Source of the DNA: a virus | Direction: 5' to 3' (one strand) | IMG/VR virus record: IMGVR_UViG_3300006754_000062 | Coordinates: 1-35,179 of that record | Length of the DNA stretch: 35,179 nt | Shown here: positions 1,487 through 33,249 of the stretch, one piece after another | Position numbering within the stretch: position 1 is the stretch's first letter | Layout: every line of letters starts with the position of its first letter | The notes under the pieces: model-generated | The model's input: only the letters and a program-made list of their open reading frames with translations | Databases searched by the model: none | Told to the model about the DNA's origin: nothing | Position numbers and translations under genes: made by a program

Positions 1487-4400
1487 TTAAGTACATGTTC
1501 CGGGAGTGTATGGCACAGTAGGCGTTCCACAATCTGTACAACCTACCCCATCACCACAGGATTGTACGGATATCTCTACAATACTATCCACTGTCATTCC
1601 CTCCTGAGGGAATTGGTTAGGATTAAAATAAGGGTAAGTGCTTGAGCATACTGTTATACAGCTCCCTTCCTCAAGACTAGAGTAAGCCGGAAGAGTGACT
1701 ATATCTGTTGCCGGTGCAGATCCCGGAGTGATAACCTCAAAATCATAGTCATACACAGCGTTTTTAGCTTTTAACTGATAACATGTATAATTACCTGCAC
1801 CACAGCTACAGTCACAACAAACACCCTCTAGTAAAGAGGATACTCCAATCGCTCCCGGATCATAGCATAACCACTCACTTTGTCTTTCTCTTATGTCAAC
1901 AACTATATATAAATTAGGGTCAGGATTAGGAGCTATAGGAGCAGGCATAGTAAACACCCCTCTATATTTTAATGCTCCACTAAGGGCAGGGACCCATACA
2001 TTGTTAATATCATCCCAACTAAAAAAATCTACTCCCGTAATTTGAGTGCTGTTAGCCAATAATGTTACCGCATCTTGTTGGTTAGTTCTGTCGTAATCAG
2101 TATTTGTTCTTAAATACCTTAAGCTATGTTTAGTTATATCGAAAATAAAGTTGGCAGTAGTTCCGAGTGCATTACCTCCGGGACCCAAAGACTGAACATC
2201 TACTATAATCTCCACTGTATCACCGGTCATAGGAGCTCCATTAGGTGCCCCCTGAGTTAATTGTTGCCATTGAGTATTATTCCATCCTCCACCGGCATTA
2301 AACCCAACGCCTCCCATACCGTCAGGAACATAAGGGTATTGAGGATAACCCAAAGCCCCTATTGGCGTTTGATAAATACTTTCTATATTACTAATAAGAC
2401 CTACAGGCCATGCCGATTCATATTCTACAACTTGTTGATTAATATTTCCTGTTAAGGTTGAAGTTTGCCATTGCCACGTAATAATAGGTGCCTGCAAGCA
2501 TAAAGCGTCAGGCCCATTGATTGGATCATAATAAGTAGCCACATTCTCTGCAGGACAGTTTCTTTGAGAGGTATATAAAACAGTATCTATATCTATAAGT
2601 GTGGGAGTGGCACAATCTAAAGTGCTGTTAATAGTAAATACACTTGCAGTATTAGGAGTTATAGTTACTGTCGCTGTAGTAGGAATAGCAGTAAGCTTGC
2701 TCCATGTTACGGTATTTGGAGGAGGTGGGTTTGATGTCAAGAGGATAGGTAATCCACCCGGCAATACAGAACTGTTGTTCCATTCTACCTGTATATATGC
2801 TTGAGTAACGCCCCCGGCAGCGGTAGGTGTAAGGTTAAAATTCCATATTACATCTCCCACTGCCCCTTCTCCATCTTCAGGAAATTCTACATAAAACACA
2901 ATAGGAGTTAAAGTTCCCTCTGTAGTAATCTCAAGAGGAGTTCCACAAGCTATAATATCTTGCTCTGTTTCAATGTCACTTATTACCACATCACATTCTC
3001 CCGGAGTAAAAAATATAGGTCGGTCTGTTAACGATACCACATACTCATTCATATAAGGATCAAACCCTCCAAGCTTTTGAGTGTATATATTAATAGATGA
3101 CGTTAACTCTCCGTTAAAAGCATCTCTAAACCAACTCCTCATTCCGTATTCTGATAATACCTGAAGCTGTTCATTTTGTGATGAAGAGCCTCTAAGGTTT
3201 AATACTGCTCCTCGTTTTTCGTCAATGAAAAATTTATCTAACCCAAACTCTACATAGCTCTCAGGATTATTACTAATACCATAACGCTCTGTTCTAGCTA
3301 TTTGTGTTCCTAAAACTTCAGGAACAGAAGCTACTGTACCACCACCTGAAGAGTCACTTAATAAATTCTTTCCTGCTAACACATACGATATCTTATCTTC
3401 CTGTAAAACAAGAACATCGGTATCTCTACCGCTAAGTATTTGCACCTTACCAAAGCTATCTTCTAGCGACTTCCAATTAACAAGACCTAAATTAAATTCA
3501 TTAGACTTATTAATATTGGTTTCATTATTAATTATTCCACTGTATGTAATATCAGCATATCGATGTGCCCTTCTGTAGTCCTCGTTAGCAGTTGCTGTTA
3601 CACGTTGACCTAATGAGAAATACCTTCCCGATAAAGAATCATTTACTTTATAGCTTTCCACTCCATTGCCAAATGCAAAGCAGTTGAAAAAAGATAAATT
3701 AAAAACTCCGGTTGTTCCTGTAACTGCTGTACCTACCACCTGACTTACATCGTTATTACCCGCAATACCTTGGTGAGATCCTGTTGTTACATCAATAGGG
3801 TATACATCAGAACCTTCGTACCATAAATCAGGGTTCGCAGGTTTCGCCGGCGTTTCAAATACTACTATCTCTTCTTTGAAGCTAATATCAAATGCACATT
3901 CAATTTTATTATTCTCACTATTTCCCCCTCCCGCACGAACTAAAAATTGTATTTCCCCACCCGCCATTACAGCCCACTGCAAGAATATAGTACATTCATT
4001 GGTATCACAATCATACTGTGGAAGAATCCACGCATTAGCAGGATTAGCCACCGGTGCAAGTAGTGGGTCGTAGTCAATAGTAACCCCACCCCCACACGCA
4101 CTATATAGCTGTTCTCCTTCACTTACCATATAAGCATGAACATTCATATCATTAAAGAGGGTGATGATATCAGGATATGTTTGGTCTGCTATAAATCTTT
4201 TATGAAACCTCCACTCTGCCTGACCTCCTACTCCTGAGCCCCCTACCGTTCCTTTTCTAAACCACCTTAATCCAATCTTCACAGAAGTTCCCTGAGGTAT
4301 ACTCATACCATAGGGTGGAGCTACATTTATATTATTAGGACCGCTCAGACCTCTATAGTTTAACGAAGGACAAATGTTGGCAACTAATTCTCCATCAGGA

Positions 4401-7243
4401 AGAATAGTAGATACAGAAGACGATTGTGTTACAGGTATTCCTGACACCGGATATAACGGTGAAACATTAGATGCGGTGTCAAAAGGAAAGTTTGCCATCT
4501 CCATATATACTCCCGCAGGAACATATAAGTTTTGATTAGTATTAGCAGGATCAGGGATAGTAATAAAGTTCGCCTCCTGAACTTCTTTTCTTAATACGGT
4601 GGCATATACACATGTTCCTACTGCGCCATTGGCATCAGTTTTTACTATAAGCTTATCTCCTGCCTCTACCTTTTGAGCGTTCTCTCCGTCTAATAAGAAA
4701 TAAGTTACTAGTGTTCCGGGAGTTGAACCGGTGGCAGCATTAGAAGAATTGTCGGGAGCGGTAAAAGAGTTTTTTGCATATATAGTCTCATACCCTTCTT
4801 CACTAGGCTTCATCGCAAATTTAAAATTTGTCGCCCATTGTGGAGCAGCCATGGTCGGAGGAATAATAATACGAGCTTGATTTACTTTATCTGACATAAA
4901 GCATGGAACAAAAAGATTACTTCCCGATTGACCTCCCTGAACTCCTCCCGAAAGTTGGTTACTTACTATTGGTGTAGTAGCTCTATTCCAATCGTCCATA
5001 TAAATGATTCCCACCTCATAACCTCTATTACTGTGTAGACTTTTGTTATCAGAAGCATTGACTATGTTTGCAGATATAGATATAAACTTAGGAACTACCA
5101 CAGCAAAACTCACTAATCCTGTAGATCCGTCAGGATTAATCGGATTCGCAGGAACATTAAGAGGAACATATACCATGGGATGTAGCCATAGTTTAAATTT
5201 AGTAGGATCATTAACCATAGCATCTGCACCGATAGCCATAGTCTCTGACCCCGAATCTCCCTGTGCGGGTCCTGTTGCCGGCGGCACTTCTGAAGCAGAC
5301 AGGTATTTATAAGTGCTTCCGATAAGTCCTGTTTGCATACTTAAGGCATATCGTGCATTAACAAGGTTGGTTAAATTATACCCACCATTTGTGCCTGATG
5401 CAACTGAAGCCTCTGCGTTAAAAGGTTGAGCAACAAAAGGACCTATAGCCGTTCCTGTTCCAAGTGCCTGCTGAAAATCAATACTTGACACCATCTCTGT
5501 AACATCAGCATAGTCTTGTGGTAGTGTCCAACTAAAATTTACGGTACTTCCATTTGCAAAAGGATTTGTGCTCGGTGGATTTCCCAAATACGTATTAAAA
5601 GCAAATGGTGGGACATTAGTCCATTGCCAAAAAGGGTTAGCCCGATCCATTTGAAAAGTTAAATTAAGAGTAGATCCTGCCGTTAATGGTATATCTGCAA
5701 AATCCATCTCTACTTCATTGTCCGGAATATTTAGATATGTTTGTCCATACACCTCTCTGTCTCCCGGGCCAAAAGTGGTGATAGCATTTTGAAACCCTAA
5801 CTCTTTAGAATCTAAAACAGTTTCATATATAGGATTAACAATAGCATCAAACTTGTTTACCAAATTATACTGTTCTTGATAATTACCATACATCAATCTA
5901 TTGCCCATAATAGTTTGTGCTTTAGCTACTATAGGAACATTATCATAAAGTCTAAGGATTTCATACTCAGGAAGCACAGTATAAACCTTGGTGTTATCAA
6001 AATTAATAGTATACGTACTATTATTAAGAAGACCTAATTGATTTTTATTAAATCGATCTATAATTTTAATCAGTGAAGTGTCGGAACTTTTAAACACCAC
6101 CTCAATATCTGTCACCAATCTATCTCCTGTTTCAAACAACACAGTTACTGCGTTGTATTTATTAATCATCCCCTCGTTTAAATCACTGTCTTGGCTATAG
6201 AAAAAAGGTTCAGTAGCAAAAGCGATTTCACTAAATGATGATAATGCAGAAAACTCTCCACCTTCATATCTATATCTAGTGGCAAAAGAAATCATTTTAT
6301 CTTCTATGTAATTTCTCTCCGTACCGTTGTTAATTAAAGTAATATTAGGGGAAGTGGTTGGTGGCTCTTTAATAACCATTATCTCTTTAGCTGTAAAGTT
6401 ATCACAACTTGTAGTGGGGTTTGTTTGTGGTGGCACAGGGGCACTGACCACAGGCTCTCCATATTGTTTAGTAACATCTATAACTCGTGGAGGGTTATGG
6501 TTGTCAGTAAAAAATAAAAAATTATCTATTAGATTAACCCCTGTAATTAAATTGTTGGGGTTGAAATTTAAAGTTGTATTCCATTGAGTGGTACAGGGAA
6601 TACAATCGTATACACTAATAATATGATATATCAAATTTTGACTGTTCACATTATAGGATAATATCATATCCATCCTATGTGTATTTTGATAAATAGTATA
6701 AGCAGTTCCCGGCGCAGCAAACATATCTCGTGATAAAACTAAGACGGTGTTACCTGTTATAGCAGTTACATAAGCAAAGTTAATAAATGGAGGAACTGTT
6801 CCATCCTCTACAACAATAGCTCCCACAACTGTTCCGTCAGTTTCAAAGGTAGCTCCTCCGTCTACTAACTCACTAGGAGATAAAGCTGTATTTGTTCCTG
6901 TAACAATCGCTGCTCCCAACGGAGCACCATCAGGATATGCCCCCATCCATGATGGGTCGTGAACAAACCAATAAATAGTTTCATTAGCTTCGTCTGCATA
7001 TTTACCTATACATGTAGCCGAAGGACTGAGAGGAGTGGAATAAGGATTTCCCGGCAGAGGGAAAGATATAGTAGGGGTAAGTTCAATGTTTCCTTTTGCA
7101 TTTTCAACTGAACCGATCTCTGAATTTTCTGTAGACCCAAGCCTTACATTTTGAGCATTGACATACTCTCCATTCTGAAGTAATCTTTCATCGATAGACT
7201 TATTCATTCTACCGGCCACAAAATTTCTTTGAGTCTTTGCCAT
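1487..7243 (-). CDS. Giant virion protein, tail stabilisation/muzzle-like
   Basis: A protein of 1918 residues and the longest gene in the window. The N-terminus (RNFVAGRMNKSIDERLL, then NVRLGSTENSEIGSVENAKG) matches a start I recognise from very large tail proteins of crAss-like and related podoviruses, annotated as stabilisation or muzzle proteins. Residues ~120-186 hold a small beta module also seen in the 334-residue connector and in the protein at 27300..27803. The central region is Asn/Gly/Thr/Pro-rich. The last ~130 residues are Cys-rich (CCDCSCGAGNYTC, then CGDGVGCTDCG), which suggests disulphides or metal binding. It follows the connector gene by 1 nt. A structural tail role is well supported by size, composition and position. 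The specific muzzle assignment is tentative. Confidence 0.8.
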   Translation of the reverse strand: MAKTQRNFVAGRMNKSIDERLLQNGEYVNAQNVRLGSTENSEIGSVENAKGNIELTPTISFPLPGNPYSTPLSPSATCIGKYADEANETIYWFVHDPSWMGAYPDGAPLGAAIVTGTNTALSPSELVDGGATFETDGTVVGAIVVEDGTVPPFINFAYVTAITGNTVLVLSRDMFAAPGTAYTIYQNTHRMDMILSYNVNSQNLIYHIISVYDCIPCTTQWNTTLNFNPNNLITGVNLIDNFLFFTDNHNPPRVIDVTKQYGEPVVSAPVPPQTNPTTSCDNFTAKEIMVIKEPPTTSPNITLINNGTERNYIEDKMISFATRYRYEGGEFSALSSFSEIAFATEPFFYSQDSDLNEGMINKYNAVTVLFETGDRLVTDIEVVFKSSDTSLIKIIDRFNKNQLGLLNNSTYTINFDNTKVYTVLPEYEILRLYDNVPIVAKAQTIMGNRLMYGNYQEQYNLVNKFDAIVNPIYETVLDSKELGFQNAITTFGPGDREVYGQTYLNIPDNEVEMDFADIPLTAGSTLNLTFQMDRANPFWQWTNVPPFAFNTYLGNPPSTNPFANGSTVNFSWTLPQDYADVTEMVSSIDFQQALGTGTAIGPFVAQPFNAEASVASGTNGGYNLTNLVNARYALSMQTGLIGSTYKYLSASEVPPATGPAQGDSGSETMAIGADAMVNDPTKFKLWLHPMVYVPLNVPANPINPDGSTGLVSFAVVVPKFISISANIVNASDNKSLHSNRGYEVGIIYMDDWNRATTPIVSNQLSGGVQGGQSGSNLFVPCFMSDKVNQARIIIPPTMAAPQWATNFKFAMKPSEEGYETIYAKNSFTAPDNSSNAATGSTPGTLVTYFLLDGENAQKVEAGDKLIVKTDANGAVGTCVYATVLRKEVQEANFITIPDPANTNQNLYVPAGVYMEMANFPFDTASNVSPLYPVSGIPVTQSSSVSTILPDGELVANICPSLNYRGLSGPNNINVAPPYGMSIPQGTSVKIGLRWFRKGTVGGSGVGGQAEWRFHKRFIADQTYPDIITLFNDMNVHAYMVSEGEQLYSACGGGVTIDYDPLLAPVANPANAWILPQYDCDTNECTIFLQWAVMAGGEIQFLVRAGGGNSENNKIECAFDISFKEEIVVFETPAKPANPDLWYEGSDVYPIDVTTGSHQGIAGNNDVSQVVGTAVTGTTGVFNLSFFNCFAFGNGVESYKVNDSLSGRYFSLGQRVTATANEDYRRAHRYADITYSGIINNETNINKSNEFNLGLVNWKSLEDSFGKVQILSGRDTDVLVLQEDKISYVLAGKNLLSDSSGGGTVASVPEVLGTQIARTERYGISNNPESYVEFGLDKFFIDEKRGAVLNLRGSSSQNEQLQVLSEYGMRSWFRDAFNGELTSSINIYTQKLGGFDPYMNEYVVSLTDRPIFFTPGECDVVISDIETEQDIIACGTPLEITTEGTLTPIVFYVEFPEDGEGAVGDVIWNFNLTPTAAGGVTQAYIQVEWNNSSVLPGGLPILLTSNPPPPNTVTWSKLTAIPTTATVTITPNTASVFTINSTLDCATPTLIDIDTVLYTSQRNCPAENVATYYDPINGPDALCLQAPIITWQWQTSTLTGNINQQVVEYESAWPVGLISNIESIYQTPIGALGYPQYPYVPDGMGGVGFNAGGGWNNTQWQQLTQGAPNGAPMTGDTVEIIVDVQSLGPGGNALGTTANFIFDITKHSLRYLRTNTDYDRTNQQDAVTLLANSTQITGVDFFSWDDINNVWVPALSGALKYRGVFTMPAPIAPNPDPNLYIVVDIRERQSEWLCYDPGAIGVSSLLEGVCCDCSCGAGNYTCYQLKAKNAVYDYDFEVITPGSAPATDIVTLPAYSSLEEGSCITVCSSTYPYFNPNQFPQEGMTVDSIVEISVQSCGDGVGCTDCGTPTVPYTPGTCT

Positions 7244-13224: not shown

Positions 13225-14688
13225 CTATTCTTGGAATAGAACAAAGTTGTTCGCACCCATAGTACAAACACATCTTTCTGATAAGAAGTTTACAGTCATC
13301 GCATCGATATTATCTGTCTTTGCGCCTCCTGCAGAACCTGTCAACCATGTTTTGTATCGTCTGTCTTCAGTTTCTGAAGCACGATATCTAACATGTAAGA
13401 AAGGTCGTTTTGCATTCTTACCTAAGATTTGGTCATAAACAGAAGTAGAACCTGCCGGTACTAATAATCCATTTACTCGACCTGAGCCTGCACCTGTTGG
13501 CAAACCACCTCGCATAGTTGGGTCATTTAAGTATTTCCAATCAGACTTGTAGAAGTCATATCCTCTTCGGAATCCTGTGAATCCTAGATTTAATGCCATC
13601 TCTTCATCATTATCGAAAAGACCATAAGACGTACCACCTGCACCATAAGAGTTTTGAGCTGCTAACATATCGTCAATATCAAAACCGAAGTTTCTGTCAA
13701 CGAATACAACATTCTCCTCAATAGCACCTTGGTTGTCTAGTCTACCAATGATCGCATCCCAATCAGCTAATGCTGTTGGATTACCACCACCCCAAACATT
13801 TCCTCTGTCTCCAACAACAAAGAACACACCTTCGGAACCCATAAAGTTTGCTGTAGCTGCACCTGATAGATTTTCTGCCGGTACTGCCTCAATCATCGAT
13901 GTCTCAAGATAGTCGTCAAAACGTAATCTTGTTTCATGCTCTGATTTTAGATACCATAGGAATCCTGAAGCACCATCTTCTGTGCTAACTTCAATCCATC
14001 CGATTTGAGCCATATCAGAACCACTAACCTCGTAAGTATCTTTTAAGATGATAGGATTATTTTTAAATATATAATCATCAGCTTCTAAAGACCCTACCAT
14101 TCCCGGAGTTCCTTTTCTAAACTCTGAACCGTAGATAAAGATAGTTGTATCAGCGTTACCTGCACCTGTACCTGCTGCTACCTGACCACCCGCTTCGTAG
14201 TAGTCTACAGTAAATGTAGTAGCTGTAGGAACAGCAGTAACAATACCTTTGTTGCTACCTGCACCATTATTAAAGACAATCATTACTGTTTGCCCTACTC
14301 TAATTGATATTTGGTTAGCAGCATTGTATGCTGTTGCCGGAGTAGTAACAATACCTGCACCACCTGCCGGAAATGCACTATCATTCACTGTCCATGTTGC
14401 CTGATTTACTCCTGCTATCGCCACTGTACCACACTGTGTAAACTTAGTATGTAACCGTCCTTGTTCTGCCCATTTTATTTGGTCAGAAATAGAAGGTAAT
14501 TCTGCACCTACTAATCTCAAGAACGATGAGATTGTTCGGTTGCCGTATCTTTCAAATTCCTTTTCATAAGTATCGGGTAGATACTGATTCAAGAAATCGA
14601 AATTCGTAATATAATTGCTAATCGTCGGGGTCTGCGTACTGCTTGGCTGTAAGTCAAAACCCGGCGTAGCTAACATTGAACCTGCCAT
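13225..14688 (-). CDS. Major capsid protein (HK97-fold, crAss-like type)
   Basis: A protein of 487 residues. The start MAGSMLATPGFDLQPSSTQT is followed by NFDFLNQYLPDTYEKEFERY and GNRTISSFLRLVGAELP, a run I recognise from MCPs of marine Bacteroidetes and crAss-like phages. Residues ~85-185 are a Gly/Ala/Thr-rich beta insertion (VGQTVMIVFNNG, GIVTAV, FTVDYYEAGG) that probably forms a surface domain. The second half is typical HK97-fold P-domain-like sequence. It follows the scaffold candidate by 29 nt and ends in a strong terminator. Order terminase-portal-scaffold-MCP supports the call. This is the most likely client of the phage chaperonin, which is inference. Confidence 0.9.
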   Translation of the reverse strand: MAGSMLATPGFDLQPSSTQTPTISNYITNFDFLNQYLPDTYEKEFERYGNRTISSFLRLVGAELPSISDQIKWAEQGRLHTKFTQCGTVAIAGVNQATWTVNDSAFPAGGAGIVTTPATAYNAANQISIRVGQTVMIVFNNGAGSNKGIVTAVPTATTFTVDYYEAGGQVAAGTGAGNADTTIFIYGSEFRKGTPGMVGSLEADDYIFKNNPIILKDTYEVSGSDMAQIGWIEVSTEDGASGFLWYLKSEHETRLRFDDYLETSMIEAVPAENLSGAATANFMGSEGVFFVVGDRGNVWGGGNPTALADWDAIIGRLDNQGAIEENVVFVDRNFGFDIDDMLAAQNSYGAGGTSYGLFDNDEEMALNLGFTGFRRGYDFYKSDWKYLNDPTMRGGLPTGAGSGRVNGLLVPAGSTSVYDQILGKNAKRPFLHVRYRASETEDRRYKTWLTGSAGGAKTDNIDAMTVNFLSERCVCTMGANNFVLFQE

Positions 14689-15902: not shown

Positions 15903-18365
15903 CTACCTCGGTTCAAACTCTGACATATCAAATCCGTCTAAGCTATCCTCATTTGACTCAAACATCTTTGCTGTAGTTGTTTGTTCAAAATTTTCAGGAG
16001 GTAGGTTATTTTTTCTTTGACTTATGAGTTTACTCTGCTGAGTGTTCTGTTGGTTTATTCTTTCCGCTTTAGCAAATTCTCTTTGATCTTCTCTCTGCTG
16101 TAATGCTCTCTCCGATGTGTCTCTTAATTGCATGTTATAACCAAACTCTTTATCCATAAGTTGAGACTTTAACATAGCCTCCTGTTTCATCTTCTCTATT
16201 TCAAAAGCAATCTCTGCTTGCTTTATTTTCATCTTCGATTGAGTTTCTGCTTCCATCTTTTGCATTGCCGCTTGTGCAGCCATCTGCTGACTCTGTTGGT
16301 TTATCTGAGCTTGAGCTTGCATCTTCATCATTTCCTGTTGCTCATCCTTTTCTTCTTTCTTTCTTCTTTTAAGTTTTAAAAGCTGATTGGCAAGTTTTAA
16401 ATTTCTAACCTCTCGTATATCAATAGCATCTTCTAAATTAATATCTTGTTTAGATAAAGCCATTTGTATGTTTTGTTCCAACTGAGCTTTCTCTTCTTCA
16501 TCAGGAGACACGTCAATAAAAATACCGAAGTCATATAGGTATAAATCTTTTGTGTCATTTAATATTGAAACATTATATTTTCCTATTTGATTTACAAAAT
16601 TTTCTTTAAAGTCAGAATACTCTAATATGTCCCCTACCCTATAAGACAATGCTTCTGCTAGACTTCTGTAGATAAATAAACTTCCATCTAATATATGCCT
16701 AGTCGCAGTATTAGAATTTAATGCAGCTAACTTCTGAATACCAACTAAAGAATTAGGATCAGGCGTGCTACCGTCTCTCGCTTCATTTAAGCCGGTTACA
16801 GCCCTAATCATGTTAAGATAATGATTATAGTTACCAATTAACATTTGCGTTTTGCTAGCTCCTGAATTAGAGGTTAGCTGAGTAATTGGAACTTTACCTT
16901 GGTTATAGTCTCCATCTTGAGTATAGCTTCTACCTATCACACTACCTGTTTGAAAATATAATCTCAACGCATCTTCGGGATTGTAAGCATTTCCTGTTCC
17001 TAGGTCTACTTCATTTAATCCGTCTGCATCAATAAACACACCGTCCGGTACAACTCGTGATATAACTTGTTGAAGTTTTAAATGAGTAATCTGAATTAAG
17101 TCAGCAAAAGGAATCATTCGTCTTACCAATGACTCAATAACACCCTTATACATTCTAGGAGCAACAGCAATATAATTAGGAATAGCATATTGATTAGCCG
17201 ACTTAGGTCTTACCATATTCTCTTCCAACTCCCACTTTAAAATAATATTAGTTCCCATAACCATTACGCCGGTATACCACACGTCAATAGTTTTTTCTAC
17301 CTTCTCAAAATTCCCTTCTTCCATCATTTCTTCAGGTGGATCGAATTGATCATCTTTCTCTATCATTTTTTCATTACCATTCTCATTAACCTTCTTCTTA
17401 TAAACAAACTTCTTTGTTGTTTTATAATTAAAATACATAACGGTAGCTGTATCTCTATAGAACATAGAGTCTTGATACATTTGGGCTGTATTAAAATAGT
17501 CATACCAACTTTGACTGTATTGAGATATTTCTTTTAAATCCTCGTTAGTTAGAGTTGGGTCTATTTTCTTTAGCTCAATAATGGGTAATGTCTTTATTTC
17601 ACCCCAATAAAAACAATCTTTAAAGTGTGGGTCTTCAGTGTAACTATATACCACATTAGCAGGATCAACATATTCTACGTTTACCCCGTCTCCTAATTGA
17701 AAGTTATGTTTAGCTACAGCAATTCCCAATACTGTTAAGTCATAATCAAATCTCTTTCTTAGGTCTACATATTTATTATTATCTAATAAAGTGTTAATAG
17801 CCTCCTCTTGAGCTATCTCAATAGCGGGCTTATAGTTAAGTTGCATATATAAGGATAGCTCTTCATCTGAAGCAGGAAGCTCGTTAGGATCCATAGAGTA
17901 AGGGTTAACACCCCCCCTCTTTTGTATAATATCAAGAACAGGTTTCGCAACCATCTGTCCCTCTATCATTCTTTGATAGGTGCTTCGCTTAGATTGAGAA
18001 ATAGCATCTTGAGCATAAGCATCTACTTTAAATAATCTATCAGACATTCCATTAACTACAATGTCAACAAACTTAGGAAGTATAGGAACAGGGGTCCAAT
18101 CTAAATTAAGATAAGATAAGTCTCCATCAATAGCTAATTCGTTTTTGTATTTACCTATTGATTGCTCTCCACGAGCATATAATCTTAACCTATTATATTC
18201 TCCCCATTGATTATAGAATCTACAGCTATTACTGTCTTTGCGAAACCATTCGTATTGTATAGCCTGACCTATTTGAAGCCCAAACTCATCAGTAGCTTTT
18301 TCTGCATCTGAAACAAATTGACTTGGAAACCCTGAGGCTTGTATGTTTATTTTTATATCTTTCAT
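15903..18365 (-). CDS. Portal protein (crAss-like type, 820 aa)
   Basis: A protein of 820 residues whose ATG overlaps the TerL stop (ATGA). The N-terminal half has a helical start and DGDLSYLNLDWTPVPILPKF, typical of the large portal proteins of crAss-like phages. The centre contains EYVDPANVVYSYTEDPHFKD and the long stem-like helix around VRRMIPFADLIQITHLKLQQ. Residues ~670-790 are Gln-rich and charged coiled coil (QQEMMKMQAQAQINQQSQQM), matching the long C-terminal barrel/crown of podovirus portals. It lies between TerL and scaffold. Length and order fit the family well. Confidence 0.9.
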   Translation of the reverse strand: MKDIKINIQASGFPSQFVSDAEKATDEFGLQIGQAIQYEWFRKDSNSCRFYNQWGEYNRLRLYARGEQSIGKYKNELAIDGDLSYLNLDWTPVPILPKFVDIVVNGMSDRLFKVDAYAQDAISQSKRSTYQRMIEGQMVAKPVLDIIQKRGGVNPYSMDPNELPASDEELSLYMQLNYKPAIEIAQEEAINTLLDNNKYVDLRKRFDYDLTVLGIAVAKHNFQLGDGVNVEYVDPANVVYSYTEDPHFKDCFYWGEIKTLPIIELKKIDPTLTNEDLKEISQYSQSWYDYFNTAQMYQDSMFYRDTATVMYFNYKTTKKFVYKKKVNENGNEKMIEKDDQFDPPEEMMEEGNFEKVEKTIDVWYTGVMVMGTNIILKWELEENMVRPKSANQYAIPNYIAVAPRMYKGVIESLVRRMIPFADLIQITHLKLQQVISRVVPDGVFIDADGLNEVDLGTGNAYNPEDALRLYFQTGSVIGRSYTQDGDYNQGKVPITQLTSNSGASKTQMLIGNYNHYLNMIRAVTGLNEARDGSTPDPNSLVGIQKLAALNSNTATRHILDGSLFIYRSLAEALSYRVGDILEYSDFKENFVNQIGKYNVSILNDTKDLYLYDFGIFIDVSPDEEEKAQLEQNIQMALSKQDINLEDAIDIREVRNLKLANQLLKLKRRKKEEKDEQQEMMKMQAQAQINQQSQQMAAQAAMQKMEAETQSKMKIKQAEIAFEIEKMKQEAMLKSQLMDKEFGYNMQLRDTSERALQQREDQREFAKAERINQQNTQQSKLISQRKNNLPPENFEQTTTAKMFESNEDSLDGFDMSEFEPR

Positions 18366-20566
18366 CGTATTAATGTACTTAATCTCCCTGTATTAGTATA
18401 CCTTGCAAAGTTAACACTTATTTTTGATTGTTTCTTTTGAGGTGAATAGAGGTGACGTTGAATGGCCATGATAGCTAATCCCGAGCTAATAGTTGCGTCA
18501 TGTCTAGTTCTACTTGTTATGTCAAATCTTGCCCAATCTTCTAAAGTTTTAGAAAACAACATCATACCCATTTCATCAGAAGGTCGGTACGTAGATTCAA
18601 GATCTAGCCCTACATGCTTTTCAATATAAGACTCTACTGCTGCCGCATGTGCTTGCTTTATATCTTCTGAAGTATTTGGTATACCTCCTAATTCTTTTTC
18701 TGACTTAGAAAGTTTTGCTCTATGTTTGTCCGGCCTGTTCATCGAGAAACCTCTATACCCCCTATTCTTTAAATGATAAAGTAATCTAGGTTTATTATTC
18801 TCAACTAGAATGGGCATTCCATAAAACACACAGGCCATTAATACTTCCTCAAAAAATATCTCTGCCGTTTGAGGTCGTGCAATATATTCTAAAAAGAACT
18901 GATTGCTTGGAGCTTCTTCCATACTAAATGTAGTCAATCCATGTAGAGCTCCGTTTGAACCACCCCCACCTACTGTTCCTGATATATCATAAGAGTCACA
19001 ACCAAACGCACCTATGTGGTCATTTCCCGGAAATTTCATTCCGTTTCTTTCTATAACATTATTCTGTAAATGTTTAGGAGGACTCCAACTAATTAAAAAC
19101 CTTCCCCTTTTATTCGGTGTCCATATAACTTTACTATCTTTAATTCCATTAGCCCACGAAAAAGAACCTCGTGTTAAAAAATGTTCAGGGATTAAAGAAT
19201 CATTATAATCTATTTGTTGATATATCTTAGTTAAATTAAATAAAGATGATTTACTCTCATCTCTAAATGCATGAGACTCTGTTCTTGGAAACTGTCGATA
19301 AAATTCATTCAGAGCATCAGCATCATTTTTTAACGAATCAACCTCTGCTTCCCAATAATCAATAGCTCCATTACGTATCCATTCACCATCAACTCCTTTT
19401 ACTTTTTCCTGTGGCTTACGAAATACAGGCTGTCCATAGACATCTATAAACCCTTCCATATTATACTCCATAGGAATAAATAAAGAATACAATCCACTTT
19501 TAGTTTGTCCATTTGCATTTCGTGAAGACAAACTAGAATCTTCAAATAGTTTCTTGAAATTTTCCCCACCTTTACTTAGTGCATTAGAGGTAGAACCCAT
19601 CATACATTTACCAATAATCTTACTACCTAATCGTAAACAGGTCTTGGTTACTCTCCAATTATTTAAGATGTTATTAGGCTTTATCCATTTACCACTTTCA
19701 TCGTGAACTAACAATAATAATTTCTCCCCATCATAAGAGTTATCGTCAGTGTTCTTCCAATCAATAGTAGTATCTAAACCTAATAGCTCATCATTGGTTG
19801 TGTCATACATATTCTTCTTAGTAATCTTAGCCGCCGGAACTCTAAAGGCTAATTCAGTTTTAGGTTTATCCATCCCATCTTGGATAGGTTTGAAAAAGAA
19901 TGGTAATCGATTTGATATAGGAACAACCTTGTCTGTAAACATTTTCTTTGCATCTGATCCGGTCTTAGATAATACCCCCACTCTTGAATCTTTTGCTAAT
20001 GTTCCAATATTAACACACTCTGAAGAACCCATATAAGAAAATCCTGAACGTCTAATTTTTAAATAAGTCATTCCAAAACATCTTGAGTCCGCCTTACACG
20101 CTTCCCAAAATAAAAAGAATATTCTATTAGCCTCACGATAATCAGGATACCCTACATCAATACTTGTCCATTGAAGATACATATAATGAGCCCCTGTTAT
20201 ATAGGTAGTAACTCCTTTATTAATAAACCATTCCCCGTACTCTCTTTTATCAAACTCTCCCTCAATATAATCTACCCACCTATTCTTAAAAGCAGAGTCC
20301 ATTGTGTTCCATTGAAAGATAGAGTTGATTTTAGAAAGCTGTTTAGGTAGCTCGTGACGTTGCCAATATTGTTTATCTTTAGGAGTTTTCTTTTTAGGCT
20401 TAATATACAAGGGAAGACCTATTCTTAATCCTGAGACATCTATAATATCTCCAACCTTTCCTGACTTAGAGATATTAACGAAGTCATACTTTTCATTATA
20501 CCCATACTTCCATGAAGAAGCTTTATTCTTTCGTGATAAAACTCCCTTGGGAATATAATCTTGCAT
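18362..20566 (-). CDS. terL: Terminase large subunit (packaging ATPase-nuclease)
   Basis: A protein of 734 residues from the ATG at 20566 (MQDYIPKGVLSRKNK). A longer frame begins with TTG at 20644 but lies inside the upstream gene, so I reject it. The ATPase half has a deviant Walker A around residues 172-177 (RRSGFS), Walker B at ~283-290 (LLLLVHDE, with D289 E290) and a coupling motif GSTSN at ~324-328. The nuclease half has an RNase H-like acidic set: D524 in GAFGCDSYD, E589 in PILVENN, and D690 in RTRHDATIS. It couples ATP hydrolysis to DNA translocation at the portal. The long form and motif variants are those of crAss-like TerL. Confidence 0.93.
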   Translation of the reverse strand: MQDYIPKGVLSRKNKASSWKYGYNEKYDFVNISKSGKVGDIIDVSGLRIGLPLYIKPKKKTPKDKQYWQRHELPKQLSKINSIFQWNTMDSAFKNRWVDYIEGEFDKREYGEWFINKGVTTYITGAHYMYLQWTSIDVGYPDYREANRIFFLFWEACKADSRCFGMTYLKIRRSGFSYMGSSECVNIGTLAKDSRVGVLSKTGSDAKKMFTDKVVPISNRLPFFFKPIQDGMDKPKTELAFRVPAAKITKKNMYDTTNDELLGLDTTIDWKNTDDNSYDGEKLLLLVHDESGKWIKPNNILNNWRVTKTCLRLGSKIIGKCMMGSTSNALSKGGENFKKLFEDSSLSSRNANGQTKSGLYSLFIPMEYNMEGFIDVYGQPVFRKPQEKVKGVDGEWIRNGAIDYWEAEVDSLKNDADALNEFYRQFPRTESHAFRDESKSSLFNLTKIYQQIDYNDSLIPEHFLTRGSFSWANGIKDSKVIWTPNKRGRFLISWSPPKHLQNNVIERNGMKFPGNDHIGAFGCDSYDISGTVGGGGSNGALHGLTTFSMEEAPSNQFFLEYIARPQTAEIFFEEVLMACVFYGMPILVENNKPRLLYHLKNRGYRGFSMNRPDKHRAKLSKSEKELGGIPNTSEDIKQAHAAAVESYIEKHVGLDLESTYRPSDEMGMMLFSKTLEDWARFDITSRTRHDATISSGLAIMAIQRHLYSPQKKQSKISVNFARYTNTGRLSTLIR

Positions 20567-20579
20567 AAGAGTATATAAT

Positions 20580-20861
20580 TTATTTTGATCTTCTTTCCGC
20601 AAATCCTTGTTTTGTTTGTGTTTTATCTGCACCCTTGCTTGCAATCTCTAAGCTCTCTTCTTCAGAATCTATTCTATTTAATATTTCAAAAGCATCAAAG
20701 ATGGCTAGCTTTTTAGTCGCCGCAGCATTTTTTAATCTATCCGCAGCCAACTCATCTTCAGGGTCAGGTTTTATAATTTCTTCTTTAGCAACTTTAATTA
20801 ATTGTCTAACCGCTTTCCTTCCGGCTTTTATAATTTCTAATTTTATTTCTTTTGAATCCAT
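20580..20861 (-). CDS. Small helical protein before TerL (terminase small-subunit candidate)
   Basis: A protein of 93 residues from the ATG at 20861 (MDSKEIKLEIIKAGRKAVRQ). The upstream extension reads into the neighbouring gene and is rejected. The sequence is all-helical and charged, with ADRLKNAAATKKLAIFDAFE and a following acidic run DSEEESLE. It ends 13 nt before TerL. A short helical DNA-binding or oligomerising protein here is the natural candidate for the terminase small subunit. I see no clear helix-turn-helix, so the call rests on position. Confidence 0.6.
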   Translation of the reverse strand: MDSKEIKLEIIKAGRKAVRQLIKVAKEEIIKPDPEDELAADRLKNAAATKKLAIFDAFEILNRIDSEEESLEIASKGADKTQTKQGFAERRSK

Positions 20862-20874
20862 ATTGTTTTTAATT

Positions 20875-21441
20875 TTATAGAACCACCGGTATTTGATGGT
20901 CATATATTCTATACAACAACTCTCCATCTACCTTAAATTCATATTCCATATTAGGATTAAACATAACTCTATCACCTTTCTTTACTCCTTGTTTTTTTAA
21001 ATACTCATTAGGGTATTTCATCTCACCTACCAATGGCTCAAACCTAACATTCTTATGAAAATGATAATCCTGTTTAGTAGGAATGGGTTTAATAAAACAA
21101 TACCTATCATAAGGTTTCCATTCACCGTCTTGCTTATAAAGAAAGAATTGTTCGCCATCAATTAAAAAGGTGTTCTCTCTAAAGAAACTCCTTCCACTTT
21201 TCTGTCTACCATACATATCATTATAATATTTAAAAACATTATGATGAACCAATAAAGTATCCCCCTTCTTTATAGGACCTTTATACCTCAGGGGAGTTTC
21301 AATTACTATAGCTTCCCTATTAGAAAACTTATGGTCTTCTTCCGAAGAGCTTACTAAAAACTCAACACCTCCTATATTTTTTTTATTAGCATACCGTTGA
21401 TTCCCTACCGGTTGTACTAAAAAGTCTGTTGGTGATTTCAT
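20875..21441 (-). CDS. Tandem GroES-like protein (two fused cpn10-type barrels)
   Basis: A protein of 188 residues. Residues 1-108 align by eye to a GroES barrel: strand FLVQPVG, a loop ending in IGGVEFLV (compare GGIVL of GroES mobile loops), REAIVIETP, then KKGDTLLVHHNVFKY, then FLIDGEQFFLYKQD. Residues ~109-188 repeat the pattern without a mobile loop: DRYCFIKPI, VKKGDRVMFNPNMEYEFKVD, then GELLYRIYDHQIPVVL, which mirrors the end of GroES. It overlaps the neighbouring 73-residue gene by 4 nt (ATGA) and lies just upstream of the terminase genes. A co-chaperonin or assembly role is inferred. The tandem fold is a pattern judgement and would be settled by structure prediction. Confidence 0.7.
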   Translation of the reverse strand: MKSPTDFLVQPVGNQRYANKKNIGGVEFLVSSSEEDHKFSNREAIVIETPLRYKGPIKKGDTLLVHHNVFKYYNDMYGRQKSGRSFFRENTFLIDGEQFFLYKQDGEWKPYDRYCFIKPIPTKQDYHFHKNVRFEPLVGEMKYPNEYLKKQGVKKGDRVMFNPNMEYEFKVDGELLYRIYDHQIPVVL

Positions 21442-21659
21442 TCAAAATATATATTATATTCTACCGAGATAGGCATAGTGTCTGTGAACTCTTTCCACAA
21501 TACAACCTCTCCCTTTTTTTCTATCCAAATACGAATTGACCCACCTTCATTTTTAATTAGGTGTATGTTGTGTGAGCCGTTCAACACCTCTTGCCCTACA
21601 ATGTAGTGCATTGCCCCTGACTTATAATCAGGTCCTACTGAAATTTTTCTTATATCCAT
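21438..21659 (-). CDS. Conserved small phage protein (73 aa)
   Basis: A protein of 73 residues. It begins MDIRKISVGPDYKSGAMHYI and continues VGQEVLNGSHNIHLIK, an all-beta pattern I recognise as a recurring small protein in marine phages, usually located near terminase or fibre genes. No enzyme motif or membrane segment. It overlaps the tandem GroES-like gene by 4 nt, so the two are probably translated together. Function unknown. Confidence 0.7.
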   Translation of the reverse strand: MDIRKISVGPDYKSGAMHYIVGQEVLNGSHNIHLIKNEGGSIRIWIEKKGEVVLWKEFTDTMPISVEYNIYFE

Positions 21660-28657: not shown

Positions 28658-28804
28658 TTAATCTTCCTTTTCCTTTTTCTTAGGAGTAAGAGAACTTCTC
28701 CATGTATGAAACTTACCCAAACCGGTTAACCCTGTTTTTTGCTTAGTAGTTTTTTTCATTCCCTTAATAAGGGACTTAATTAATGACATTGAATCTTTGC
28801 TCAT
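28658..28804 (-). CDS. Tiny basic protein (48 aa)
   Basis: MSKDSMSLIKSLIKGMKKTT, then TGLTGLGKFHTWRSSLTPKK, with a charged end. It has an own promoter-like TAAATTTG box 18 nt upstream (28823-28830) in the divergent gap facing the winged-helix gene. No recognisable domain. Confidence 0.6.
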   Translation of the reverse strand: MSKDSMSLIKSLIKGMKKTTKQKTGLTGLGKFHTWRSSLTPKKKEKED

Positions 28805-28844
28805 AGTTTTGTATCTTTATCACAAATTTACTAAAATTATTTAT

Positions 28845-29276
28845 ATGAATCGAGATTACCTAAAGTATTGGAGGGTTATTAGTTATTTTATAAAATCAAA
28901 ATACAACCTCAAACAAGCTGAACTAGATACACTTTTATTTTTAAATTCAGAATCATATTTCTCTAAAGAAAAGTTTAAAGAGTTTAACGAGCTTCTTAGT
29001 TGGAACAAAAGAAGATTTGATATTCTCCTTAGAGATGGATGGATAGAAGTGTTTAGAAAAAGATCAGGCGTACATAAAACTTTATATCAACTGTCTTATA
29101 AATCACAAAGAGTTTTAAAATCTATCTACGATAAACTAGAAGGAACAGAGATTCCCGATAGCCAACACAATCCTATGTTCCATAGGAACGTCTCATATAC
29201 TGATAAGGTATATAGGAATATGATAAAAGAAATGAATAAAACTATAAGACAACAACGACATTCTTCTCAAGAATAA
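28845..29276 (+). CDS. Winged-helix (MarR-like) regulator candidate
   Basis: A protein of 143 residues from the ATG at 28845 (MNRDYLKYWRVISYFIKSKY). The longer frame begins upstream with a hydrophobic, AT-rich stretch that I treat as untranslated. The layout is winged-helix: KYNLKQAELDTLLFLNSE, FSKEKFKEFNELLSWNKRRF as the recognition region, then the wing DGWIEVFRKRSG with HKTLYQLSYKSQRV, and a C-terminal NVSYTDKVYRNMIKEMNKTI. This is a pattern I recall as conserved in phages of marine flavobacteria. It is the only plus-strand gene inside the minus-strand block, divergent from the tiny basic genes and convergent with groES, whose 3' end it overlaps by 35 nt. Probably a transcription switch. 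Confidence 0.75.
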   Translation: MNRDYLKYWRVISYFIKSKYNLKQAELDTLLFLNSESYFSKEKFKEFNELLSWNKRRFDILLRDGWIEVFRKRSGVHKTLYQLSYKSQRVLKSIYDKLEGTEIPDSQHNPMFHRNVSYTDKVYRNMIKEMNKTIRQQRHSSQE

Positions 29277-29499
29277 TAGTATACTGCTCGTTATTTATCA
29301 TAACAGTATTCCCTGAGCCTTTATCATAGTATATAATATCATCAGTCTTTATAACCTCAACATCATTACCCGGTTTTATAACTTTACCTTTCTGATATCT
29401 GAATCCGCTTACATCTTCTTTAGATAATAACAACCCACCTTTGGTGGTTACTTGTTCTTCTATCTTATTAATTATAATATATTTTCCTATTGCTTTCAT
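29242..29499 (-). CDS. groES: Phage GroES co-chaperonin, roof loop missing
   Basis: A protein of 85 residues, shorter than the usual ~95-97. N-terminal strand MKAIGKYIIINKIEE; mobile loop at ~14-30 with the hydrophobic GroEL-binding tripeptide in KGGLLLSKE; then YQKGKVIKPGNDVEVIKTDD. The ~10-residue roof hairpin found between these strands in bacterial GroES is absent. The barrel closes with IIYYDKGSG, TVMINNEQYTIILEKN and a hydrophobic end VVVVL. It caps the GroEL ring during folding. The ATG overlaps the groEL stop by 4 nt, and groES is downstream of groEL, the reverse of the usual bacterial order. It is the likely partner of the adjacent phage GroEL. Confidence 0.9.
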   Translation of the reverse strand: MKAIGKYIIINKIEEQVTTKGGLLLSKEDVSGFRYQKGKVIKPGNDVEVIKTDDIIYYDKGSGNTVMINNEQYTIILEKNVVVVL

Positions 29500-31106
29500 T
29501 CTGTGTCGTATGAACGTGCCATAGTTACAATGGCATCAGTGCTTAATATAGTTACAGCTACAGAGACAGCATTTTGTAATGCACTCTTAGTAACTTTCAT
29601 AGGGTCAATAACACCCATCTTAATAAGGTCTCCGTATTTCTCAGACTTAATATCATACCCATAACCCGATTCCATTCCTGTATTATATATCTTACATGGA
29701 TTCAGTCCGGCATTATGAAGTATTTGATTAAGAGGAGCTGTCATTGCTTTAGATAAAATTGCGGAAGCAATTTTTTGCGAAAGAGTTTTCCCTTTTGTCA
29801 TCACTCCATTATTGGCAACCTCCTGTAATGCTAACCCTGAGCCGGGTAATATACCTTCGGTAAGTGCTGAACGAACTGCACACACAGCATCATCAACCCT
29901 GTCATACAACTCTTTTTGTTCTAGGTCAGTATTCCCTCCCACATATATAACACCCACACCACCGGTAAGTGAAGCGATACGTGACATGATAAACTCTCTC
30001 TCAGTTTTATTATTAGATAGCTTATGCGATCCCCATAGCTCTTCTACTCTTTTATTAATCTCCTCAGTGTTCTCTCTTTCGGACGAGAGGATGATACTAG
30101 AGTCTCGCCCAACTATCACCTTGGCCGCTCTCCCTAAGTCGGAGAAGTTTATAACACTCAAATCATCCCCTGTCTTTTCTGAGAAGTAGGTTGCTCCTAC
30201 TGACAATGCTATATCTTGCATTAACTCATGTTGCTTGTATCCAAAGTTAGGTGGCTGTATAACACATATCTTTAAATTCCTTTTCATCACATTAGCCGCT
30301 AATGTGTTTAATACATTATTAGCACAAGGAGAAATAATAAATAAAGACTTGTTGTCAGATATAATTGGTTTTAGAATCTCCTCGATGTTTAAGATATTAT
30401 TTATCTCAGCATCACAAACAAGAATATAAGGATTATCTAAAATACACTCATCTTTCTTTTGGTTATTAATAAACAAAGGATTTGAATAACCCCTATCAAC
30501 CTTTATACCATCGGTACTCTCATAATAAGTCTCAGTACCTTGGGCTTTCTCGACAGTAACAATACCATTCTTACCTACCTCATTGTAGATTTTAGATATG
30601 ATGTCACCAATAACAGGATCATTATTGGCTGAGATAGTAGCTACACTTTTTAATTTTGATTTGGTTACAGGCTTACTCTTCTTCTTTAACTCCCTAACAA
30701 CCTCATTGGTAATATTAACTAACTCTCTTAAAACCTCAGTCTTATTATGCTTAGGATTTTTTTCAAACATCTCCATAGCACACTTAACAATAGCCTCAGT
30801 TAATACAATCGCTGTCGTTGTTCCATCACCCGCAGTAGTAGCGGTTCTATCCGCCGCCTCTTTCATCATCCTAACCGCAAGGTTTTCCACAGGGTCCATC
30901 AAGTCAATAGACTTAGCCACAGTAACACCGTCTTTAGTTACTGTTAAACTATGTGTATGATGAGGTGATTCTATAAGGACCGTATTTCCACTCGGACCAA
31001 GGGTGCTCTTTACAGCAGTAGATATTTTATTTATTCCCCTTATTAATTTATCCCTTCCTTCTTTTCCAAAGTTTAACTCCTTTGGTGAGTATCCTGTTTG
31101 ATTCAT
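29496..31106 (-). CDS. groEL: Phage chaperonin GroEL
   Basis: A full-length protein of 536 residues (E. coli 548). Equatorial ATP site: STLGPSGNTVL at ~34-44, KDG with D59 (as D52), AGDGTTTA with D94 (as D87), and RVDDAV with D406 (as D398), so all catalytic acids are present. The usual GGG after ~residue 420 is GSG (ILPGSGLAL). The apical domain is complete (DRGYSNPLFINNQK, NILNIEEILKPII, then ANVMKRNLKICVIQPPNFGY). The C-terminus ends MARSYDTE with no GGM repeats. A TTTG-N20-TATATTTG promoter lies in front. Predicted to fold phage or host proteins under ATP control, probably including the capsid protein. Confidence 0.95.
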   Translation of the reverse strand: MNQTGYSPKELNFGKEGRDKLIRGINKISTAVKSTLGPSGNTVLIESPHHTHSLTVTKDGVTVAKSIDLMDPVENLAVRMMKEAADRTATTAGDGTTTAIVLTEAIVKCAMEMFEKNPKHNKTEVLRELVNITNEVVRELKKKSKPVTKSKLKSVATISANNDPVIGDIISKIYNEVGKNGIVTVEKAQGTETYYESTDGIKVDRGYSNPLFINNQKKDECILDNPYILVCDAEINNILNIEEILKPIISDNKSLFIISPCANNVLNTLAANVMKRNLKICVIQPPNFGYKQHELMQDIALSVGATYFSEKTGDDLSVINFSDLGRAAKVIVGRDSSIILSSERENTEEINKRVEELWGSHKLSNNKTEREFIMSRIASLTGGVGVIYVGGNTDLEQKELYDRVDDAVCAVRSALTEGILPGSGLALQEVANNGVMTKGKTLSQKIASAILSKAMTAPLNQILHNAGLNPCKIYNTGMESGYGYDIKSEKYGDLIKMGVIDPMKVTKSALQNAVSVAVTILSTDAIVTMARSYDTE

Positions 31107-31129: not shown

Positions 31130-31161
31130 CAAATATAACAATTATTTTATAATGACACAAA
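31130..31161 (-). promoter_or_regulatory. groEL-groES promoter (TTTG-N20-TATATTTG)
   Basis: On the minus strand TTTG (31158-31161) and TATATTTG (31130-31137) are separated by 20 nt, the known Bacteroidetes -33/-7 form. The groEL ATG is 23 nt past the -7 box. Near the upstream TCGACA repeat array. Confidence 0.8.
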
Positions 31162-32204: not shown

Positions 32205-32234
32205 TTTGTATATTGTCTAAAAATCGTATATTTG
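32205..32234 (+). promoter_or_regulatory. Early promoter P1 (TTTG-N18-TATATTTG)
   Basis: TTTG (32205-32208) and TATATTTG (32227-32234). The core GTCTAAnnnTCGTATATTTGTAG recurs at promoter P2 (33230-33251). It drives the 231-residue gene through a ~155 nt leader. The leader has a hairpin AAAC-(A)-AGGG-GAAA-CCCT-GTTT (32241-32261) and the TGTCTCG hairpin. Confidence 0.8.
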
Positions 32235-33217: not shown

Positions 33218-33249
33218 TTTGGTAGTGTCGTCTAATTGTCGTATATTTG
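33218..33249 (+). promoter_or_regulatory. Early promoter P2 (TTTG-N20-TATATTTG)
   Basis: TTTG (33218-33221) and TATATTTG (33242-33249), 20 nt apart, in a core almost the same as P1. It is followed directly by the hairpin and U-tract at 33263-33345. Confidence 0.8.

Follow-up and report, generated by a model that had tools for sequence, protein, structure and literature searches.

The groEL and groES genes and their surroundings

The stretch of DNA analysed here, called the window throughout, is a virus record of 35,179 bases; as relatives that carry these genes are up to 55-65 kb long, it was treated as a fragment. Its minus strand carries groEL (29496..31106), which encodes a Group I chaperonin of 536 amino acids, followed by groES (29242..29499), which encodes a single-domain co-chaperonin of 85 amino acids. 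Both products were matched by Pfam above the curated cut-offs, GroEL by PF00118 (Cpn60_TCP1) over residues 28-529 (E = 7e-54) and GroES by PF00166 (Cpn10; E = 2.7e-10), and GroEL was in addition matched by PHROG 5725 (E = 3e-134). The TGA stop codon of groEL overlaps the ATG of groES at 29496-29499 on the minus strand. An initial annotation of this DNA had described just such a complete pair, with groEL first and a 4-nt overlap, and both open reading frames were found where it had placed them. It had also credited GroEL with all three catalytic acids, and the equivalents of E. coli D52, D87 and D398 were indeed identified in the window and in 82 of 82 members of its clade. The same 82 proteins keep T30, the GTTT at 88-91, S151 and D495; the letters at the catalytic/ATP, ring-ring and lid-contact positions used here and below agree with the E. 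coli sequence. By both profile and ATP site, the window protein belongs with the Group I chaperonins (GroEL/Cpn60).

Judged from its sequence, the small GroES is a Cpn10. Its mobile loop, TKGGLLL, aligns with SAGGIVL of E. coli and has the two glycines followed by hydrophobic residues, while the roof hairpin of E. coli GroES is absent from the alignment. A length of 85 amino acids was found in 45 of the 54 GroES proteins of the clade.

The pair is not a chance occurrence, since it is conserved in many relatives and since the differences between the groEL genes of the window and of one relative (L001) number 91/56/244 by codon position. The 4-nt overlap was considered as a hallmark of the lineage and rejected: among 79 relatives with both genes, 20 have an overlap (by exactly 4 nt in just 9), while the genes are 0-60 nt apart in 4 and farther apart in 55, the greatest distance being 2,095 nt.

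The initial annotation had assigned the pair a promoter of the form TTTG-N20-TATATTTG, and an exact match to this promoter-like motif, which is of the Bacteroidetes type, does lie upstream of groEL, at 31130..31161 on the minus strand. In the window alone the motif is weak evidence, with 4 exact matches against 1.43 expected and at least 4 in 7 of 100 shuffles, and its support comes from the comparison over relatives only. There it was enriched upstream of groEL, being found at 22 of 79 loci, compared with 0.68 on average in shuffles and with 13 hits among 400 stretches drawn at random from these loci. A sigma-70 scan of the region was at background (22 found, 18.9 in shuffles). Two further promoter-like TTTG-N-TATATTTG sites are present at 32205-32234 (+) and 33218-33249 (+), in gaps upstream of plus-strand ORFs.

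A convergent ORF of 159 amino acids (28797..29276, plus strand; phrog_17028) overlaps the 3' end of groES and is a possible regulator. A homologue adjoins groES in all 76 loci compared and extends over the 3' end of groES in 69 of them, so that an antisense or regulatory link to groES is possible. The gene at the same place in Podoviridae sp. ctfjg026 (MW202828) is labelled repressor. Elsewhere on the minus strand, the ORF at 13225..14688 encodes a virion structural protein (PHROG 13704, E = 1e-96), the one that the initial annotation took for the major capsid protein (MCP); it is a candidate client only. The 1,918-amino-acid protein encoded at 1487-7243 (-) weakly matches the muzzle protein of Crassvirus (PF25731, E = 9.8e-7), a hint of a remote tie to crAss-like phages.

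Gene order and descent of the pair

In a search of IMG/VR, 80 loci were retained out of 538 relatives. In 79 of these 80 viral loci the two genes share a strand, with groES downstream, the exception (L020) having no groES detected within 1.5 kb beyond groEL. The cellular sample gave 62 matches in the 61 genomes searched; loci were examined for 30 of the 62, and in these Bacteroidota loci groES was upstream of groEL in 30 of 30. The pair is intact and long inherited in phages, and it runs in the opposite order to that of bacteria, as the initial annotation had it. The arrangement was also counted for 212 GroELs, with eight loci (L081, L179, L180, L182, L183, L191, L232 and L238) left out as copies or truncated. 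The cellular loci, 30 in number, had groES first. The phage rows, which include five MAG contigs and L184, had groEL first in 129 cases, groES first in 8 and no detected groES in 45; this last count is an upper bound, as a distant GroES may be missed and as the GroES profile used did not detect the weak Cpn10 located directly upstream in MW202566 (L094). L184, from a genome (G002) that also holds the Bacteroidetes MAG contig L175, carries a further groEL-first pair inside the phage branch and is probably another phage contig.

A quick maximum-likelihood tree with a midpoint root was constructed from 96 of the 212 GroELs, all less than 78% identical to each other; its long branches (L083, L085, L093, L095 and others) are placed unsurely. 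One branch (SH-aLRT 96) held 46 of the 47 groEL-first rows, and two changes were needed to account for gene order on the tree. The phylogenetic check proposed in the initial annotation was carried out for GroEL, and it put the window inside a phage branch of 36 rows with support 100. The nearest cellular GroEL examined was 39% identical to that of the window. Together, the order counts, the tree and this distance indicate that the groEL-first order is a long-standing trait of a single phage lineage. The lineage is of the podovirus type, with genomes of 55-65 kb, and infects Bacteroidota, and its chaperonin has long been inherited within phages.

Recent capture of a host groE operon, or misassembly of the contig, is extremely improbable. 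The initial annotation had named near-identity within one host genus, with the host gene order nearby, as the sign of such an event; neither was found. The only observation in favour of capture is that a few close relatives sit in bacterial MAGs, but these matches are short contigs in unrelated bins: a search of genome contigs gave 7 loci, all on short MAG contigs, which were interpreted as binned phage DNA. Capture and misassembly were rejected on the order, reversed with respect to 30 of 30 Bacteroidota loci, on the 39% identity, on the tree and on the neighbours of the pair, which are the same in 76 of 76 relatives.

The suggestion that such a pair is unusual among phages, or new, did not survive comparison. 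The same order occurs in isolated Elemovirus phages, in Maribacter phage Panino and in the assembled genome MW202828; it is lineage-wide, already annotated in isolated phages, and ordinary for the lineage. According to Marine et al. in 2017 (ISME J), the order of the two genes reportedly follows GroEL phylogeny. That some phages carry both groEL and groES was stated in 2020 (PMC7185714). The Elemovirus phages of Flavobacterium sp. BAL314 (NC_055852), with genomes of ~60 kb, have groEL and then groES as in the window, with a 1-nt overlap; they differ in a GroEL only 37% identical to that of the window and in a pair oriented opposite to the packaging genes. MW202828 belongs to the same clade as the window, with identities of 57% for GroEL, 51% for GroES and 74% for the terminase large subunit (TerL). 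In contrast, the Callevirus phages phi38:1 and Calle (Pervagoviridae), which also have GroEL and GroES, show the bacterial order, groES-ORF-groEL, near the DNA polymerase gene (L083, L088, L307).

A tandem GroES-like gene beside the terminase gene

A second co-chaperonin-like gene, overlooked in the initial annotation, is located in the packaging module at 20875..21441 on the minus strand and encodes a tandem (two-domain) GroES-like protein of 188 amino acids. The earlier description of a complete matched pair stands as regards completeness, but there is more than a pair. The tandem gene is followed by the TerL gene (18362..20644, minus strand; PHROG 6681, E = 7e-176), which is listed with a TTG start although the true start may differ. 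Just upstream, and overlapping it by 4 nt, is an ORF of 73 amino acids (21438..21659, minus strand) with a homologue in 98 of 105 tandem loci.

Two GroES folds, arranged head to tail, are predicted for the tandem protein by structure modelling. In the window, the Pfam Cpn10 search gave a second, below-cut-off match at 20887-21030, within the 188-amino-acid ORF, and PHROG 13932 ('co-chaperonin GroES') covered residues 1-180 (E = 1.9e-23). An AlphaFold2 model made from a 38-sequence alignment had a pLDDT of 81 and a pTM of 0.76. Its best match in the PDB was Chlamydomonas Cpn20, a tandem double GroES (Foldseek E = 2.3e-5), represented by chain 7ekq_R from a ClpP complex; in VIA-align the two gave a Z of 10.2 over 161 residues with an rmsd of 4.6, the match spanning model residues 1-188. 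The second domain alone (107-188) gave a Z of 9.2 against GroES, with an rmsd of 2.4 over 79 residues. The model of the homologue from an isolated Flavobacterium phage of the elemo type, ~30% identical to the window protein, had the same best match, again along its whole length (E = 6.5e-5, Z = 10.1, 152 residues), and is not fully independent, because its alignment also held window-type sequences. In a Foldseek search of viral models, the annotated 'Chaperonin cpn10' of Cellulophaga phage phi18:3, of 200 amino acids, was matched over its full length.

At the level of sequence the two halves behaved differently. Pfam Cpn10 matched the second domain in phi19:3 (E = 1.6e-7) and phi38:1 (2e-6), and an i-E of 0.01 was passed by the second half in 51 of 63 tandem proteins but by the first half in 1 of 63. 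The best scores of the first half were 8.6 bits in phi19:3 and 7.4 in the elemo type, and shuffles reach 7.7. In hhalign the first half gave 12.5% and the second half 68% against GroES, and the two halves aligned with each other at a probability of 1%, which is no sequence proof of a repeat. A PDB search with a profile of the tandem alignment returned GroES chains only, at E = 0.19. Being hardly detectable by sequence, the first domain is proposed from the models, the Cpn20 match and a loop of its own. This GroES-like loop reads IGGVEFLV in the window, SNGLILN in the elemo type and TESGLEL in phi19:3, and in the alignment no clear GG-hydrophobic mobile loop was seen in the second domain. The motif HHN at residues 66-68, which starts a long conserved loop, is invariant in 33 of 33 aligned tandem proteins, the elemo and Callevirus types included.

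Chloroplasts also have single (Cpn10) and tandem (Cpn20) forms of GroES together, as the window phage seems to, and Cpn20 was the best fold match of both models. A Cpn20 has a GroEL-binding mobile loop in both domains, whereas in the phage tandem protein the loop is clear only in the first. Given this one-sided loop and an identity to chloroplast Cpn20 of 11-18%, the protein is described here as Cpn20-shaped and was not filed in the plant family. Tandem GroES is called chloroplast-specific in PMC5780408, and among the titles and abstracts of the open-licence literature no description of tandem GroES in phages was found; in deposited records the genes are labelled cpn10 or GroES.

The tandem gene was present in 23 of 24 GroEL-picked records of at least 55 kb of the window's clade, in 3 of 3 elemo-type and in 2 of 2 Callevirus GroEL-bearing records; among other GroEL-bearing records a match was found in 2 of 13, one of these partial and weak. 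Conversely, records picked by the tandem gene had GroEL in 11 of 13 cases and in 7 of 7 of those of at least 60 kb. Pairwise identities of GroEL, GroES and the tandem protein correlate over 25 genomes, for which shared ancestry alone may suffice. The homologue in MW202828, 60% identical to the window protein, is labelled hypothetical, while the Elemovirus phages have a homologous TerL and a tandem gene annotated as co-chaperonin GroES or cpn10. In Callevirus the tandem gene likewise adjoins TerL, and 'chaperonin cpn10' is listed as a core gene of the family Pervagoviridae in PMC8776804. Baltivirus phi19:3 (Pachyviridae) resembles the window in having a small GroES and a tandem GroES upstream of TerL, but no GroEL was found in its whole genome at E up to 10. 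From phi19:3 it follows that the tandem protein needs no phage GroEL, and the occurrence across records, with phi19:3, makes the tandem gene the more constant part while GroEL comes and goes.

This distribution bears on whether the tandem protein is a lid at all. It may be GroES-like in fold and yet act in head assembly or packaging, for example as a substitute for a small terminase or as a scaffold-like ring, leaving a chaperonin of GroEL and the small GroES; we regard this as possible, though doubtful. Of the 105 loci long enough to show it, 92 have the tandem gene upstream of TerL, and the gene tracks the TerL family more closely than GroEL. In a phage collection the window TerL found 87 records, the tandem protein 77 and the phi19:3-type tandem 8 more; the tandem records fit inside the TerL set by host counts (not accession by accession), leaving two Tenacibaculum records, in one of which no tandem gene was seen near TerL. 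The absence of GroEL from phi19:3 agrees with a function outside the chaperonin, as does the fact that the most conserved part of the protein, the HHN loop, is not a GroES feature. However, a GroES-like loop is retained in the first domain, the closest fold is that of a true co-chaperonin, and phi19:3, which encodes a small GroES, could work with the GroEL of its host.

GroEL ring contacts and the proposed chaperonin

The ring-ring contact residues of E. coli GroEL, A109, R452, E461, S463 and V464, are at positions conserved in hosts and varying freely in the clade. In a comparison of 55 clade and 24 host sequences (less than 90% identity), the entropy of these columns was on average 2.57 bits higher in the clade than in hosts, and that of host-conserved columns taken at random 0.51 bits higher. 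Out of 20,000 draws, a fraction of 0.0 reached 2.57, and of 0.0001 when equatorial columns only were drawn. None of the 82 clade GroELs has the GGM tail, which is present in 22 of 30 hosts. In the groove for substrate and lid, all 82 have E in place of L234 and A in place of V264, and all 82 keep L237 and F204. The clade GroEL has kept its ATPase site and lost constraint at the ring-ring contacts. Its residues suggest that it is probably mostly single-ring, and the altered groove would be consistent with a client range of its own.

A conventional double-ring GroEL with a GroES lid, special in gene order only, with the contact variation due to fast phage evolution, is unlikely to be the whole account. 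The Pfam and PHROG matches and the intact ATP site would suit it, and the clade is more variable than hosts over all columns (mean entropy 0.96 versus 0.64). Against it, the ring-ring columns far exceed the random host-conserved background, the GGM tail is missing throughout the clade, and a gene for a predicted tandem co-chaperonin is present. Even so, part of the group may have kept the double ring, since all 14 elemo-type GroELs still have R or K at position 452. The chaperonins of phiEL, OBP and AR9 are, like that of the window, phage GroEL homologues, and ring separation or single rings are reported for them; they are also reported to work without a co-chaperonin, whereas the window has groES directly downstream of groEL. 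The phiEL chaperonin is described in PMC7185714 as forming double rings despite altered contacts, which counts against the single-ring reading of the clade GroEL.

The explanation that we favour, and consider likely, is a long-inherited three-part phage chaperonin, made of a GroEL leaning to the single ring, the small GroES and a Cpn20-like tandem lid, that folds head proteins. The GroEL barrel would bind unfolded phage proteins and ATP, and would act mainly as a single ring. The chamber might be closed by the small roof-less GroES, by the tandem protein or by both, perhaps with three tandem proteins and one single GroES supplying the seven domains of a mixed lid. Chlamydomonas likewise arrives at seven domains by combining single with tandem forms (PMC5780408). 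The substrates would be head proteins made late in infection. To our knowledge, T4 has neither a GroEL nor a tandem form. Its gp31 is presented in PMC5780408 as a phage co-chaperonin used for capsid protein folding, and this analogy, with the position of the tandem gene beside the terminase gene, makes head proteins likely clients. Virion proteins had already been suggested as clients in the initial annotation, and by the same analogy they would fit. For phi38:1, mass spectrometry has revealed GroEL peptides in infected cells as well as in free virions (PMC13288928), with GroEL and a putative capsid protein as the two methylated phi38:1 proteins of free virions; the virion GroEL is possibly carry-over, as the virions came from lysates. 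More tentatively, and with the odds against it, the three-part chaperonin might be unlike any described outside plastids, a single-ring GroEL with a mixed seven-domain lid whose one-sided loop, with the invariant HHN, would form an asymmetric chamber for head proteins.

The interest of the locus seems to lie in a predicted Cpn20-like tandem co-chaperonin in a phage, together with a GroEL that seems past the double-ring state. A phage lineage with single and tandem GroES, and with GroEL in most branches and none in phi19:3, is a natural experiment that bears on why lids use fused domains and on whether the seven-fold symmetry of the lid matters; since Elemovirus and Callevirus relatives have been isolated, the question is open to genetics. 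A further suggestion from the lineage is that genomes of only ~60 kb can sustain a full folding machine through long periods, an argument for phage clients so demanding that they exceed the capacity of the host chaperonin.
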